Part shown: positions 17,453-27,204 of the stretch, in pieces
Layout: every line of letters begins with the position of its first letter
Position numbering within the stretch: the first letter of the stretch is position 1
Assembly: GCA_947165145.1 (NCBI GenBank)
Contig: CAMUZG010000025.1
Span: 1-35,514 of the forward strand
Direction of reading: 5' to 3'
From: an uncultured Selenomonadales bacterium
GTDB taxonomy: Bacteria; Bacillota; Negativicutes; Selenomonadales; Selenomonadaceae
Length of the DNA stretch: 35,514 bases
The notes under the pieces: model-generated
The model's input: the letters and a program-made list of their open reading frames with translations, nothing else
Databases searched by the model: none
What the model was told of the DNA's origin: nothing
Translations under genes and position numbers: made by a program

Positions 17453-17545
17453 CAAAAAGCCCGTTGCCCCGTTCGGCTTAAAGGAATTGCGGTGGCGGGC
17501 GCGAATTCTATTACGAAAATTTTTGACAGCCGAGGAGGTTTCATG

Positions 17546-20344
17546 ATGGCACAGCGCAAACTTTCACCGCTTACCTTGTGGGCTCTGGCTTTCGGCTGCT
17601 GCATAGGTTGGGGCTCGCTCATCATGCCTGGCACGACTTTTTTGCCAACGGCGGGCACTGCTGGCACAACGATTGCTGTGGTGCTCGGCGCGTTCGTGAT
17701 GATTCTCATTGCTTACAATTATTATTTCGTCATGCAACGCAATTCCGGCGCGGGCGGCGTCGTTACCTTTACAAAAGAGCTTTTAGGTTGGGATCATGCG
17801 TTTTTCTGCGCGTGGTTCCTGTGGATTGCTTACGTGTCGTTGCTTTGGGCGAATGCGACTGCAGTGACGCTCATGGGCAGAAATTTATTCGGCGACGTTC
17901 TACAATTCGGCTTCCACTACGAATTTGCCGGCTACGACGTTTACGGCGGCGAAGTTCTCGTGACGATACTTTTGCTGTGGACGTTCGGAATCATTTTCGC
18001 GCGAACAACTTCCCTTGCCAATCTGCTAGTGAAAATCGCGGGTGTCGTGCTGTTCGTCGGCGTGGTCTTCTGCTACGTGTCAGCAGTCACCGTCGCGCCC
18101 GCCATGCCACGATTTTACTTTGTCGAAGGTTCGGCGGAGTGGAAACAGGTCTTTATGATATTCGCGCTGATTCCGTGGGCATTTATCGGTTTCGAGACAA
18201 TCTCACAGTACGCGAACGACTTCAAAGGCAGCATACGAAAAATTTTTTACTTGATGATTGCGGCGATAATCTGCGCGGCAATCGTTTATGTTTTCATGAC
18301 GAGCCTGGCGACTTTGCAATATCCCGCGCCGTTCAAAAGTTCCTTAATTTACCTCAAGACGCTTGGCGTTTTGTCGGGGATACAACGCGTGCCAACTTTC
18401 TACGTCGTGAACGAAACGTTCGGCGGTCACGGCATTGCGATTCTGTGCGTCATCATATCGGCCGCGCTGATAACAAGTTTGCTCGGTTATTATCGTGCGG
18501 TTTGCGGCTTGACGCAGGTTTTAGCGTCGAAAAATATTTTGCCGAGTATGCTCACAAAGCGCAGGAACGCCGCAATTTTTATTCTGCTGACGTCGCTGAT
18601 AATTCCGTTCTTCGGGCGGACGGTTGTCGGTTGGTTCACGGACGTGACGACAATTGGCGCAACGATTGCTTACGGCTACACATCAACTTGCGCTTACATT
18701 CTTGCCAAACGCGAAAATAATCGGCGGGCAATCGTCACGGGGTTCGTCGGGATAATTTGTGCGTTCGCGTTCACGTTCTTTCTACTGATTCCAAACTTGT
18801 GGTCAATCAACGTGCTTTCGGAAGAATCATATTTCATCTTGGCAATCTGGGGACTGCTCGGCTTCGCGTACTTCAACTATCTTTTCAAAAACGACGAAAA
18901 AAAATTCGGCTCCGCGCCGACCGTTTGGCTGATAATGTTCTTCTTAGTGTTCTTTGCGGCGTTGATGTGGATGCGCGAAAAAATTCATGACGAGATGATA
19001 ATTTTCATTGAGGACACGAACAAATTTTACTCGAACAATCTCGCGGCACCGCGCCTCGCTTATATGAACATGCAGATTTTAAAAATGCGCTCCGTCCTGC
19101 TGACAAACTCGATGATTATGCTGTTGTTCGCGATTGTCAGCTTGGGCTTCCTGTTCACGATTTACCGCCGAATCAAATTCAAGGAAATGGCTGCTCTTGA
19201 AGAACAAAGACGTCGCGCTGAAGAGAGTTCAAAAGCAAAATCAACGTTCCTGTCGAACATGAGCCACGACATCAGGACGCCGATGAACGCCATTATCGGC
19301 TACACGACGCTTGCTCAACGACCAGGTACCACTGACACACAGCTCCGCGATTTTCTGTCGAAGATTGACGTTTCGGGCAAACACCTGTTAGACTTGATAA
19401 ACGATATTCTCGAAATGAGCCGCATTGAAAGCGGGCGCATGGAACTTGAGCTCGGCGAAGTCGACCTTAAAAAAATTCTCGACGACCTGCAGACAATGTT
19501 TCAAACGCAAATGGAGGCAAAGAACGTTGCCTTTAGCGTCGACGCGTCAAAAGTTCGTCACCGTTTCGTCAGTTGCGATAAAAACCGTTTTAACCGCGTC
19601 CTGCTCAATCTCGTCGGCAATGCGTATAAATTCACGCCGAGCGGCAAAAGTGTCGCCGTCACGATGCTTGAGCTTAGCGACGGGCAATTTGAACTGCGCG
19701 TTAAAGACACGGGAATTGGTATGTCGCATGACTTCGCTAAAAAAATTTTCCAAGCATTTGAGCGCGAACGCACTTCAACCGTCAGCGGCATTCAAGGCAC
19801 GGGACTAGGCACTGCGATTACAAAGAACATTGTCGACTTGATGAACGGCACGATTGATGTTGTCACGAAAAAAGACGTCGGCACGGAATTTATTGTCCGC
19901 GTCCACTTCGACATTATCGACAACCCGACAATCGACGAGCCCGCGCAGATTGATGAGCCTTCGTTGACGGACTTCAGCGGCGTGAAAATTTTGCTTGTCG
20001 AAGATATTGACGTTAACCGCGAGATTGCGACGATGATGCTTGAGCAGTTCGGCTTCACGATTGACATGGCGGTCAACGGTCAAGACGCGCTCGACAAGGC
20101 GACGCAAAACACTTACGACTTGATTTTAATGGACGTTCAAATGCCCGTGATGAACGGTTACGAGTCGGCGCGGGCGATTCGTGACAGCGGCTCAAACGTG
20201 CCGATTATCGCAATGACTGCGAACGCAATGCCCGAAGACATCAAACGTGCGCATGAAGCCGGCATGAACGATCACATTGCCAAACCGCTCGACGTGCCCA
20301 AAATGATGGCGACGATTGCAAAACAATTAGGAGTTAGGAATTAG
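17546..20344 (+). CDS. APC-type amino-acid permease fused to hybrid histidine kinase and receiver domain
   Basis: 932 residues in one frame. Residues about 8-475 are a 12-helix APC-superfamily transporter: TM1 CCIGWGSLIMPGT, TM6 region FALIPWAFIGFETISQY. A short extracytoplasmic segment (about 477-515) and a 13th helix (516-540) lead to a coiled linker. The histidine kinase then has His574 (NMSHDIRTPMNAIIGY), N box LLNLVGNAYKFTP, G1 DTGIGM, F box IFQAFER and G2 GTGLGTAITKNI. The receiver (812-928) has the phospho-acceptor Asp863 (LILMDVQMP) and Lys913 (AKPLD). All catalytic residues are present, so it can plausibly sense transported or bound amino acid and phosphorylate itself. No separate DNA-binding regulator or HPt gene is adjacent. 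AGGAGG lies 7 bases before ATG 17546; ATG 17543 is possible. The last residues and the TAG stop come from an intergenic repeat. Confidence 0.93.
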   Translation: MAQRKLSPLTLWALAFGCCIGWGSLIMPGTTFLPTAGTAGTTIAVVLGAFVMILIAYNYYFVMQRNSGAGGVVTFTKELLGWDHAFFCAWFLWIAYVSLLWANATAVTLMGRNLFGDVLQFGFHYEFAGYDVYGGEVLVTILLLWTFGIIFARTTSLANLLVKIAGVVLFVGVVFCYVSAVTVAPAMPRFYFVEGSAEWKQVFMIFALIPWAFIGFETISQYANDFKGSIRKIFYLMIAAIICAAIVYVFMTSLATLQYPAPFKSSLIYLKTLGVLSGIQRVPTFYVVNETFGGHGIAILCVIISAALITSLLGYYRAVCGLTQVLASKNILPSMLTKRRNAAIFILLTSLIIPFFGRTVVGWFTDVTTIGATIAYGYTSTCAYILAKRENNRRAIVTGFVGIICAFAFTFFLLIPNLWSINVLSEESYFILAIWGLLGFAYFNYLFKNDEKKFGSAPTVWLIMFFLVFFAALMWMREKIHDEMIIFIEDTNKFYSNNLAAPRLAYMNMQILKMRSVLLTNSMIMLLFAIVSLGFLFTIYRRIKFKEMAALEEQRRRAEESSKAKSTFLSNMSHDIRTPMNAIIGYTTLAQRPGTTDTQLRDFLSKIDVSGKHLLDLINDILEMSRIESGRMELELGEVDLKKILDDLQTMFQTQMEAKNVAFSVDASKVRHRFVSCDKNRFNRVLLNLVGNAYKFTPSGKSVAVTMLELSDGQFELRVKDTGIGMSHDFAKKIFQAFERERTSTVSGIQGTGLGTAITKNIVDLMNGTIDVVTKKDVGTEFIVRVHFDIIDNPTIDEPAQIDEPSLTDFSGVKILLVEDIDVNREIATMMLEQFGFTIDMAVNGQDALDKATQNTYDLILMDVQMPVMNGYESARAIRDSGSNVPIIAMTANAMPEDIKRAHEAGMNDHIAKPLDVPKMMATIAKQLGVRN

Positions 20345-20404: not shown

Positions 20405-20423
20405 ATAAAAGGGAGTGAACCGA

Positions 20424-21419
20424 ATGGTTGAGCTTCAATTTTTGATTTTCACGGTGATAATTTTGGCGTTAATCTTCGACTTCATCAACGGCTTCCACGA
20501 CACCGCCAACGCTATTGCCACATCGGTCAACACCCGCGCCCTTTATCCGAACCACGCGATAATGTTGGCGGCGGGTTTTAATTTTTTCGGAGCAATGGTC
20601 TCAACGGGCGTCGCGAAGACAATCGGCGGCGAAATCGTCAGCTCACCAAGCATCATCGACGAGAAAATCATAATCGCCGCGCTCATCGGAGCAATCACTT
20701 GGAACTTGCTGACGTGGTGGCTCGGAATCCCGTCGAGTTCGTCGCACGCGTTGATTGGCGGACTTATCGGCGCAGTTTTGATTGCTGTCGGCGTGAGCGG
20801 CTTGAATTGGGTCGGTATCGGAAAAATTTTCGTCGCGCTGATTGCGTCGCCTGCCATTGCGCTCATCACGGGAATTATCATCATGAACATCATCTTCCGC
20901 GTCTTCGACAGGTTCAGCCCGCACGTCCTCAACGACAAATTCCGCAAGTTGCAAATCGTCTCGGCGTCAATGATTGCCTTCTCGAACGGCTCGAACGACG
21001 CGCAGAAGTCAATGGGCATAATCACGCTTGCACTGTTCAGCGGCGGTTTCATTCCCGAATTCGAGGTTCCGACTTATGTCAAAGTGTTGTGCGCTACGGC
21101 AATGGCTTTGGGCACGGCGACCGGAGGTTGGCGAATCATCAAGACTGTCGGCGGGAAAATTTTCAAACTTGAACCACCCAGCGGTTTTGCGGCGGATTTG
21201 AATTCGTCAATGGTCGTTTTCGGCGCAACACTGCTACATCTGCCCGTTTCGACAACACACGTTGTCAGCGGCTCAATTATGGGTGTCGGCACCGCAAAAC
21301 GAATTAACGCTGTTCGTTGGGGCGTCGCTCAACAAATGGTCAAAGCTTGGGGCATGACGATTCCAATCACGGCGATAATCGGCGCGTCGGCTTTCGTCCT
21401 GATTAAGGCTATTTTTTAA
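20424..21419 (+). CDS. pit: Inorganic phosphate transporter, Pit family
   Basis: Low-affinity metal-phosphate/proton symporter in the membrane, 331 residues with about ten helices. It carries the two inverted family signatures: GFHDTANAIATSV near the N-terminus and FSNGSNDAQKSMG in the middle, plus VSTTHVVSGSIMG. The ATG lies 8 bases after AAAGGGAG; an upstream GTG at 20415 overlaps that site and was rejected. No phoU-like gene adjoins. It follows the transporter-kinase gene after a repeat element, so co-expression is uncertain. Confidence 0.94.
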   Translation: MVELQFLIFTVIILALIFDFINGFHDTANAIATSVNTRALYPNHAIMLAAGFNFFGAMVSTGVAKTIGGEIVSSPSIIDEKIIIAALIGAITWNLLTWWLGIPSSSSHALIGGLIGAVLIAVGVSGLNWVGIGKIFVALIASPAIALITGIIIMNIIFRVFDRFSPHVLNDKFRKLQIVSASMIAFSNGSNDAQKSMGIITLALFSGGFIPEFEVPTYVKVLCATAMALGTATGGWRIIKTVGGKIFKLEPPSGFAADLNSSMVVFGATLLHLPVSTTHVVSGSIMGVGTAKRINAVRWGVAQQMVKAWGMTIPITAIIGASAFVLIKAIF

Positions 21420-24716: not shown

Positions 24717-26630
24717 TCAATCCTTAAAATTTTCAGCCTTAAATTTCTCGAAACGGTCTTTGAACAGCGCGTTTTTGTCGGGATAGAGCGTCACGAAAGT
24801 TTTTTCGACAAAATCAATGTCAGACTTCTCGAACGGCGAAATTTTTTCGTAAACAGAGAACTTCACGTCCTCGCCCGTCGCGTTGAAGGTATATTCGCCG
24901 ATTTTTTTGAAATGACGTGACAGCGGCGAAGGATTTTCGATTAAACTTGCGAGTTTCACGACGATTTGCTGATCTTTTTCGAGAAGGTGAATTTGAATCG
25001 GATTGCTGACGATAATGAAGTCTGCGGCGAAAAAATGCGTCGGAAAACCGTCGCGCAAGTCAATTTCGTACGTATCCATCAAATTAGGCATTGCCTCGCG
25101 GTTTTCGGGGACGTAAAGCTTTTTCAACGTGTGGCAGTTGTAAATTGCGCTGTCAGTGAAAGAATAAATCTTTTTTTCAGTGCCGATGGTCAGTTTGTTC
25201 ATGTTTGCGGCGAAAATTTTCAGTTCGTCGATGTCGTGGCGGATTGGAGTGACGTATGGGCACGTAAAAAATCCCCGTGTGTTGAATGTTGTGGCGAAAG
25301 TCTGCAAAAAATTTATTGTGAGCAAAAAAATCAGTGCCGAGCCGACAATTTTTCGTTTTGACAGCGCGAAATCGATCAGCAACGCGATTAGGAACGCGAA
25401 CGGCAAAATCATCGTGTAATAATGTTGTCTGTCGACGAGTTGGACGCGGCAAATAAAAATTGGCGACGCGATTGCCCAAGTCAACAGCATTGCGGCGAGC
25501 GGGAAGGTTTTTTTGTTGCGAAAACTCACGATTGCGCCCGCGATTGCGAAAATATACGGCAGATAGCCCAAATACCACATGTGAGCCGAAATTCTTGCAA
25601 AAAAATCGTATCCGCGCTGATAAGCCGAATAAGCAGTGCCTATATCGTAAGTTAATGCGTGTTTTATGAACGGGAAGAACAGCGGCAACGTCAAAATCAG
25701 TCCCGCGAGTCCGATTACGGCGAATTTTGGCACGAGAGCAATCAAATCGCGCAATAAAGTTCGTTCAATGACGCCGATTGAGATGATATAGACCGTGTAG
25801 CCGAAAAATAATCCCAAAATCAGATAAGCAGCCGTTCGCGCTTGAAAAACTGCCAAAACGCACAGCAAAGCGATTAAAATCAGCGGTTTGAGTTGAATTT
25901 TTTCTCTGTCCAAGCTCAAAAGCAATGCAAAAATCATTGCGGCGGGCAACAAAATTGAAATGTTCGCGTAACCGACGAGAATCGGGACTTCCAACGCGGG
26001 AATGAGCATTAAAATCGCCATTAACACGGAGCACGGGAAGATTTTTACGCCGATTTGTTCAAAAAAGGATTTGAACGTCGCTGAAGCAAAAAAAATCGCG
26101 GGAAGCCCGAACATCAGCCAAACGTAAAGCTCGTAACACAAAAAACTTTTGCCGAACAGGTGCATCGGCAACGCCATAAGCATTGGCAGGAAATTATTGT
26201 AATCTGCGTGGTTGATTGAGTGGATTAAATCTTTCACGGCGTGAATTGGTTTGGTGAATACGATTTCTTCGCACGAAAGCGTTGGTTCCCAAGTTTCCAT
26301 TTGGTCGCCCGTGTAAATTGTCTGTTGCGCGCTTATCATCATGACGATAAAGCCTGTCGAGACCGCCGCGACGATAAAAATCCGTGGAAAATCGTTCAGC
26401 AGAATTTTTTTGAAGTTTATGTTGCAAAAACGCGCGGAAAGAGCGATTACGCCGTAATAACCGCCGATTAACAGCAGACAGATAATCGTTCCTGCGATTG
26501 CGGGAAAAATTTTCACGATAAACACGAACGCCGCGATGATTCCGACAAATTTCAGGGCATTTCTTGCGATATTGTTGTCGGAAAACGTTTTTAGACGCCG
26601 AAAAATTTTTTTTGATAAGTTTAAGTTCAT
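24717..26630 (-). CDS. Large multi-pass membrane protein, GT-C glycosyltransferase-like
   Basis: 637 residues with about a dozen hydrophobic helices, then a C-terminal soluble part of about 170 residues. The first loop has YTGDQMETWEPTLSC, an acidic site typical of GT-C enzymes that take sugars from polyprenyl phosphate; the family assignment is by architecture, not a firm motif. The ATG at 26628-26630 is 1 base after the Nudix stop with GAAGAGA upstream; the ATG at 26646-26648 has no ribosome binding site. It likely transfers the sugar loaded by its GtrB-like neighbour. A flippase or O-antigen ligase-like role is an alternative. Confidence 0.7.
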   Translation of the reverse strand: MNLNLSKKIFRRLKTFSDNNIARNALKFVGIIAAFVFIVKIFPAIAGTIICLLLIGGYYGVIALSARFCNINFKKILLNDFPRIFIVAAVSTGFIVMMISAQQTIYTGDQMETWEPTLSCEEIVFTKPIHAVKDLIHSINHADYNNFLPMLMALPMHLFGKSFLCYELYVWLMFGLPAIFFASATFKSFFEQIGVKIFPCSVLMAILMLIPALEVPILVGYANISILLPAAMIFALLLSLDREKIQLKPLILIALLCVLAVFQARTAAYLILGLFFGYTVYIISIGVIERTLLRDLIALVPKFAVIGLAGLILTLPLFFPFIKHALTYDIGTAYSAYQRGYDFFARISAHMWYLGYLPYIFAIAGAIVSFRNKKTFPLAAMLLTWAIASPIFICRVQLVDRQHYYTMILPFAFLIALLIDFALSKRKIVGSALIFLLTINFLQTFATTFNTRGFFTCPYVTPIRHDIDELKIFAANMNKLTIGTEKKIYSFTDSAIYNCHTLKKLYVPENREAMPNLMDTYEIDLRDGFPTHFFAADFIIVSNPIQIHLLEKDQQIVVKLASLIENPSPLSRHFKKIGEYTFNATGEDVKFSVYEKISPFEKSDIDFVEKTFVTLYPDKNALFKDRFEKFKAENFKD

Positions 26631-26631
26631 G

Positions 26632-27204
26632 TCAACGTTTCTCTTCATGGAAAATTTGTTTTGCGAGCAATAAAATTGCCACGGCGGATTTTGAATCGAA
26701 AATTTTGCCGGTTTCGACCATTTGCAATGCGGCAGTCAGCGGAATTTTGACGACATTGATAAATTCGTCGGAATCGGGATGAATTTCGCCGACCGTCAAG
26801 TCACTTGCGGCGTAAAGGTGAATATATTCGTTCGTGAAGCCGACGGTCGTGGCAATAGTGGTGAGTTTCCAAATTTTTCCGGCAGAGTAGCCAGTTTCCT
26901 CGGATAATTCACGTTTAGCGCAATCGATTGGGTCTTCGCCGGGAATATCGAGTTTTCCAGCGGGAATTTCGAGCGTAATTTTGCCGACGGGGTAGCGGAA
27001 CTGTCTGACGAGAATTATTTGATTGTCGGGCAGCAGCGGAATGACTGCGGACGCGCCTGGGTGTTTAATCCACTCGCGTGGAGCATGGTGACCATTGGGC
27101 AATTCGACTTCGTCCTTAAAAACGTGCAGGAGAACGCCGTCAAAGACTTTTTTGCTTGAAATTTTTTTCTCGACCAAATTTTTATCGTCGTCATCAATGA
27201 ACAT
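26632..27204 (-). CDS. Nudix hydrolase, ADP-ribose pyrophosphatase type
   Basis: 190 residues. Hydrolyses nucleoside diphosphate-linked compounds, probably ADP-ribose, judging by VRQFRYPVGKITLEIPAGKLD. The Nudix box ends normally (CAKRELSEETGY), but between its Gly and the first Glu there are six residues (KLDIPG) instead of the usual five. The ATG is 9 bases after AAGGAG. First gene of a minus-strand operon whose next members are glycosyltransferases. Confidence 0.9.
   Translation of the reverse strand: MFIDDDDKNLVEKKISSKKVFDGVLLHVFKDEVELPNGHHAPREWIKHPGASAVIPLLPDNQIILVRQFRYPVGKITLEIPAGKLDIPGEDPIDCAKRELSEETGYSAGKIWKLTTIATTVGFTNEYIHLYAASDLTVGEIHPDSDEFINVVKIPLTAALQMVETGKIFDSKSAVAILLLAKQIFHEEKR

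Follow-up and report, generated by a model that had tools for sequence, protein, structure and literature searches.

The DNA analysed here (the window, a stretch of 35,514 nucleotides from an uncultured Selenomonadales bacterium) encodes, in one frame, a complete 12-helix APC-family permease followed by two further membrane helices and a HisKA-HATPase_c-receiver module (Table 1). We read this protein as a transporter-derived receptor in which the ligand-bound conformation of the permease is signalled through TM12-TM14 (probability about 0.6). Slightly more guardedly, but still at better than even odds, we propose that it represents a widespread and undescribed type of bacterial receptor. On this view, an APC-family permease became a sensory head on a single occasion (by fixed pocket changes of the W101 type and a TM12-TM14 lever), reached several gut phyla and was later combined with kinases, with diguanylate cyclases and with phosphodiesterases, so that the family would be a bacterial counterpart of yeast Ssy1 with plug-in outputs. 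If this is true, the family provides a large comparative set of transporter-turned-receptors, with the stand-alone relatives as controls, and the change from transporter to sensor becomes testable by sequence and mutation. A further implication is that a single type of head may connect amino acids or similar nutrients to c-di-GMP signalling as well as to two-component systems in rumen bacteria.

Architecture of the fusion protein

Table 1. Features of the transporter-receptor gene and the gene that follows it (positions in the window)
Feature	Position	Strand	Remarks
Transporter-receptor gene	17546..20344	+	932 aa plus stop, single frame
Shine-Dalgarno-like GAGGAGG	17532..17538	+	7 bases before ATG 17546; 4 before ATG 17543
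APC-family permease, residues 1-456, 12 TM helices	17546..18913	+	
TM1 break G21-W22-G23	17606..17614	+	invariant in 70 rows
TM3 W101-A102-N103	17846..17854	+	W101 in 46/46 fused vs 0/17 stand-alone; N103 common to both
TM6 break P210-W211-A212	18173..18181	+	invariant in 70 rows
TM12 (426-449)	18821..18892	+	conservation relatively higher in fused than in stand-alone permeases
TM13 (458-478)	18917..18979	+	
Extracytoplasmic helical hairpin (479-530)	18980..19135	+	variable; lacking in some relatives
TM14 (531-552)	19136..19201	+	predicted model: helix continuous 503-591 into kinase
HisKA, phospho-acceptor H574 at 19265-19267	19235..19435	+	
HATPase_c	19577..19909	+	Pfam scan
Receiver, D863 at 20132-20134	19988..20317	+	
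PHO4/Pit-type transporter, next gene	20415..21419	+	outside the receptor; often kept beside orthologues

The sequence-only reading of this DNA had described a complete APC permease in frame with a full hybrid kinase (His574) and a receiver (Asp863), and Pfam matches, predicted fold and key residues all agree with it. The Pfam search that it had proposed recovered AA_permease_2 at 50.7 bits, above the curated cut-off of 27 (residues 6-430, profile positions 1-417 of 427), as well as HisKA, HATPase_c and the receiver. No match to the SSS family was obtained in the scan to E 0.01, where AA_permease_2 was listed instead, and the Amt family was not among the Pfam matches. In the sequence, the hybrid kinase retains the phospho-acceptor His and the N-box, the receiver retains the phospho-acceptor Asp, and the key residues of both are intact.

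Structure prediction, also suggested at the outset, gave a LeuT-type head and a helix that runs unbroken from TM14 into the kinase in a model of the monomer. By model and alignment, the permease part has the 12-helix LeuT-type fold with TM1 and TM6 broken; the structural matches of the model are LeuT-type transporters, and S-component chains are not among the matches listed. A single-sequence search of the PDB with the permease part yielded no match at E 0.1, and the structural statements therefore rest on profiles and the model. The single extra helix counted initially (a "13th helix") became two, with 14 helices in all, that is, 12 plus TM13 and TM14. TM14 ends near residue 552 and HisKA begins at 564 (about 11 residues between them); judged by this spacing on one continuous helix, neither a STAC-like soluble domain nor the STAC four-helix domain would fit between TM14 and HisKA.

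Conservation of the head and fusion-specific changes

Fused and stand-alone permeases were compared over 63 permease domains, 46 fused and 17 stand-alone, the latter including two zero-branch-length pairs (L202/L210), so that about 15 are independent. Mean pair identity is 0.459 among the fused and 0.448 among the stand-alone domains, so overall divergence is equal. Relative to this background, and in a raw comparison without a significance test, the fused heads are more conserved than the stand-alone permeases in TM1 (1.62 vs 1.23), TM3 (1.24 vs 1.07), TM10 (1.20 vs 0.99) and TM12 (1.20 vs 0.84), and less conserved in TM5, TM6 (1.19 vs 1.29), TM8, TM9 and IL2-3.

Six replacements are specific to the fusions, and of these TM3 (82-115) contains three and TM6 one: D83, W101, A102, G116, E217 and D450 each occur in 43 to 46 of the 46 fused heads and in none or one of the 17 stand-alone permeases. 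At the W101 column the stand-alone permeases mostly have P; at E217 (44/46 fused) they mostly have D; and D450 is found in 44/46 fused vs 1/17 stand-alone rows, 7 of the 17 being gapped at this column. G21, G23, N103, P210 and G215 are common to both groups. On sequence grounds, this conservation of the pocket would fit a working transporter equally with a receptor. Degeneration of the permease, which had been raised as a possible objection, is not supported, with the fold and pocket residues kept.

A true transceptor, in which the head still imports its substrate and the kinase reads the transport flux, as may hold for CbrA, is a possible but rather unlikely alternative. It is favoured by the completeness of the LeuT-type fold and the conserved TM1 and TM6 breaks, as well as by the precedent of CbrA, whose SLC5 head of LeuT-type fold mediates histidine uptake and is kinase-fused, as described in the excerpt of PMC13022988. 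The six fusion-specific replacements speak against it. So, at first sight, does the absence of the TM5 lysine of GkApcT, which serves coupling in proton-coupled relatives, from 20/20 rows (the alignment has a gap next to this column); however, 5 of these rows are stand-alone permeases (the other 15 are fused), and because these relatives equally lack the lysine, its loss does not show that transport was lost through fusion, and the argument was dropped.

The preferred reading, with the ligand bound in the permease, also has to be weighed against a role of the permease as a mere anchor, with TM13, the hairpin and TM14 forming the real sensor, a minimal four-helix-bundle receptor. In the model, two long periplasm-joined helices entering the kinase resemble ordinary two-TM kinases, and a hybrid kinase (Pfam) encoded near a fusion gene (L093:127-3285:-) has an N-terminal segment that looks similar to the hairpin by eye (SVSDFYLQEL). 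Nevertheless, no other region in the comparison is on average as poorly conserved as the hairpin (0.48, with TM5 close at 0.50, and neither with a column above 0.9). Its length varies, and only a short turn is left in L080, L183 and L184, whose kinase boxes appear intact, and in L179-L182, whose boxes look partly degenerate. An anchor with a hairpin sensor is thus improbable. The hairpin is likewise disfavoured as a ligand-binding domain by its low conservation and its shortening in relatives, and the same features weaken the original suggestion that the short extracytoplasmic loop could help to carry conformational change to the kinase.

Signalling outputs behind the head

The protein does not stand alone: it belongs to a family whose shared head is coupled to kinases in some members and to c-di-GMP enzymes in others. 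Domain assignments in this family rest on Pfam-scanned members and motif alignments. The kinase-receiver arrangement (HK-REC) was found by Pfam in the window protein, L035, L014, L183 and L184, and in one more as far as its sequence reads; L080 adds a possible Hpt domain (20.3 bits, below the cut-off), and L294 and L296 have two receivers (HK-REC-REC). HATPase_c without a receiver, with HisKA recognised or not, is present in L051 and twice each in L179 and L182, and in L298-L302 motif comparison reveals a HisKA-like motif behind the heads. The residues H574, N692, D721 and D863 are all present in 69 of 70 alignment rows, the exception being L140.

L140 (a Clostridia MAG) is among the members with GGDEF by Pfam, along with L039 (twice) and L052, both from the genus of the source genome, L256 (an Atopobiaceae MAG) and L297 (from the family of Butyrivibrio); in genome G003 (completeness 100), all three copies found are GGDEF forms. 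PAS-GGDEF occurs in L295, and GGDEF-REC-EAL stands behind the permease head in single proteins of 1455-1462 aa (L292:3823-8187:- and L293:2674-7059:+). Such a variety of signalling ends behind one head is what would be predicted for a head that serves as the input.

This diversity bears on the reverse arrangement, in which the kinase and receiver would be a regulatory tail that gates transport. Nothing direct favours it, apart from the downstream gene encoding another transporter; the head is also fused to enzymes of the GGDEF and EAL types, which act through diffusible products, and phosphorelay inputs usually consist of a hybrid kinase with a receiver. We therefore regard regulation of the permease by its own tail as very improbable.

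Other Selenomonadaceae genera carry tandem permease-kinase pairs (L179:6347-11326:+, L180:6017-10988:-, L181:2134-7004:+ and L182:4995-9946:-). These genes lack a receiver and keep the His, but several copies have an N-box or G-box of poor quality (for L180 and L181 the assignment is by motif only); the pairs are possible heterodimeric receptors. In L051:1619-4213:-, the phospho-acceptor His is replaced (MSTDIS) and HATPase_c is retained, so this protein is likely a pseudokinase; judging from their motifs, L179-L182 and L051 may be pseudokinase partners.

Distribution and integrity of the gene

The survey of genomes for the same architecture, another of the proposed checks, uncovered a second fusion in the source genome itself (L035, 965 aa, contig C1) and many relatives elsewhere. 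The nearest members are 66-72% identical over the permease part and 69-76% over the whole protein. The head is present in 36 of 37 genomes of the genus, the source genome included (G007 was counted on a short broken piece), and absent from G001; weak unfused matches were found in 3 of the 23 non-genus genomes of the same search. A profile of the linker matches 39 of 41 genus genomes, and 62 of its 67 matches in these genomes coincide with a head found by the head searches; the other five are three in G573, one in G014 and one in G032, the 1048-aa frame of G573 being a weak match (25.8 bits).

Beyond the genus, a genome scan identified at least 590 stretches that encode relatives. Among the best 80 of these at least 590 loci, 71 have a 915-1135 aa ORF whose 3' end is complete and one has a shorter ORF (738 aa), whereas in seven the contig ends within the ORF and L072 is interrupted by a stop. 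The titles of these 80 span five phyla and many ruminant-gut sources, and include Selenomonadales, Lachnospiraceae, Oscillospiraceae, Treponema, Fretibacterium, Atopobiaceae and Victivallales; since MAG titles can be mistaken, an isolated unexpected phylum calls for caution. At E 1e-30, the permease-linker profile, which also picks up stand-alone permeases, has matches in 81 of 151 genomes from the order. In the phylum sample, 11 of 398 genomes match at 1e-60, four of them (the source genome, G060, G069 and G426) with frames of fused length, and at 1e-100 there are matches in 21 of 250 genomes from the family to which the Butyrivibrio genome belongs, 22 of the 28 matches lying in frames of at least 751 aa. 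Occurrence outside Selenomonadaceae is patchy. Plasmid carriage gained no support: of at least 5000 plasmid matches, none among those listed reaches 80% query coverage, and the alignments at the ten places shown start at query residue 423 or later.

The source assembly is in 43 contigs and 82.8% complete, but a frameshift or assembly join that merged two genes, which had been named as a danger, is ruled out for practical purposes by the second copy in the same genome, the orthologues in many independent assemblies and the fusion in the isolate Butyrivibrio sp. XPD2006 (L127).

Phylogeny of the permease domain

A maximum-likelihood tree of the 63 permease domains was rooted at the midpoint. The 46 fused rows comprise 34 HK-REC, 1 HK-REC-Hpt, 7 HK and 4 GGDEF forms (L081 and L101 have receivers); the HK-REC-REC, PAS-GGDEF and GGDEF-REC-EAL members lie outside the tree sample. 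One branch, with 100/100 support, parts all 46 fused heads from all 17 stand-alone permeases. This topology fits a single fusion event, and since the root is a midpoint root, the fused heads form one clade if the true root falls on the stand-alone side.

The GGDEF rows sit inside the fused side of the tree, and output ends have been replaced after the fusion. As drawn, GGDEF needs two changes; the forks between both groups have modest support (83/74, 87/88 and 90/81), and one GGDEF origin would be compatible with all strongly supported branches. Rows from Treponema, Synergistota, Lentisphaerota and Atopobiaceae are interspersed with Bacillota rows, a pattern that points to horizontal transfer provided that the MAG labels are correct.

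Genomic neighbourhood

As noted at the outset, no regulatory target adjoins the fusion gene. Nine distinct orthologue contigs extend at least 0.7 kb past the gene, and in 7 of them the receptor is followed by a homologue of the PHO4/Pit-type gene, a possible operon partner; the exceptions are L067/L054 and L072. Neighbours of the fusion genes differ between subgroups, and no clear ligand emerges from them. Among 91 locus entries, which include repeats of the same contig, a rhodanese-like protein (by eye) is encoded at +1 on the same strand in 13, all of another subgroup (L098, L099, L105, L112 and nine more), and in 27 a relative of the L093 hybrid kinase is encoded no more than four genes away from a fusion. 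Elsewhere in the window, a 643-aa frame at 24717-26648 (-), with no Pfam match at E 0.001, adjoins glycosyltransferase and NUDIX genes.

Proposed mechanism

If the protein is a transporter-derived receptor, the central site of the APC-family permease would bind a small ligand, in all likelihood an amino acid or a compound related to one. The change between the outward-open and the occluded or inward state would move TM12 and, via the TM12-TM13 junction, the TM13/TM14 pair; this role of TM12 is proposed by analogy with Ssy1, for which a hinge and latch at TM12 have been put forward (PMC12958826). Because TM14 is continuous with the dimerisation helix of the kinase in the model, its movement could switch autophosphorylation of H574. 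The phosphate would then pass from H574 to D863 of the attached receiver and onward, presumably, to a separate Hpt protein and a response regulator encoded elsewhere in the genome. Ligand class, direction of signalling, the TM12 lever, dimerisation and the phosphorelay partner are thus elements that we infer.

The source genome has four Hpt matches, which make a phosphorelay possible; one of them is a free small protein (a 152 aa frame on contig C5, 26.1 bits). The gene for this Hpt-like protein (G000 contig C5, L149:1261-1719:+) adjoins another sensor kinase, and its product is a candidate phosphorelay partner.

Comparison with known systems

The SLC5/SSS family belongs to the APC superfamily in the TC classification, and the SLC5 head of CbrA is itself of the LeuT type, so the new point is an APC-family head and not an APC-superfamily one. 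The sequence-only reading had not recognised an APC-superfamily version with its own receiver as described; the wording had to be narrowed to an APC-family (AA_permease) head, and with that correction the claim stood, no fusion of an APC-family permease to a kinase or cyclase being found in the open-licence PMC literature by titles and abstract starts. The Quinella genome paper (PMC9585023) has no mention of permease, sensor or two-component.

Transporter-kinase fusions with an SLC5 head include CbrA, CrbS and RpuS (PMC7096432, PMC5715377 and PMC9100948). These SLC5/STAC kinases resemble the present fusion in combining an N-terminal transporter fold and a C-terminal kinase, hybrid in CrbS, in one polypeptide. 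An own receiver, at first taken to be distinctive, is therefore no special trait, since CrbS, of the SLC5 type, is already called a hybrid kinase (PMC5715377, in part). The fusion differs from them in its AA_permease_2 head, in having 12+2 helices vs 13 in CbrA, in leaving no room for a STAC bundle and in belonging to a family that also has GGDEF and EAL outputs. For another hybrid kinase, AmsS, 14 helices are predicted, and its paper (PMC10112286) uses neither the word SLC5 nor the word symporter.

In Ks-Amt5, a transporter domain is coupled directly to a kinase (PMC5764959, in excerpt). It shares with the fusion a transporter module as the sensor and direct coupling to the kinase, with no PAS, HAMP or STAC domain as far as that excerpt goes, but has a trimeric Amt head, and the excerpt mentions neither a receiver nor an extra helix pair. 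The S-component fold has been termed the first prokaryotic case of a transceptor, under a definition that, in the excerpt of PMC11109136, omits STAC-type proteins such as CbrA; the S-component/5TMR kinases of the same excerpt are, like the fusion, prokaryotic receptors with a transporter fold, but that of an ECF S-component and not the LeuT fold. CAT/SLC7 transporters, GkApcT and AdiC share the fold with the fusion head and are its best profile matches, but are plain transporters without output domains.

In yeast, Ssy1 (the SPS sensor) and Gap1 are, like the fusion, APC-type amino-acid permeases serving as receptor and transceptor, respectively; unlike the fusion, they are eukaryotic, and Ssy1 signals via the separate Ptr3 and Ssy5, with no fused kinase or cyclase. 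On our best reading, the fusion works like CbrA, Ks-Amt5 or Ssy1, yet belongs to none of these groups.
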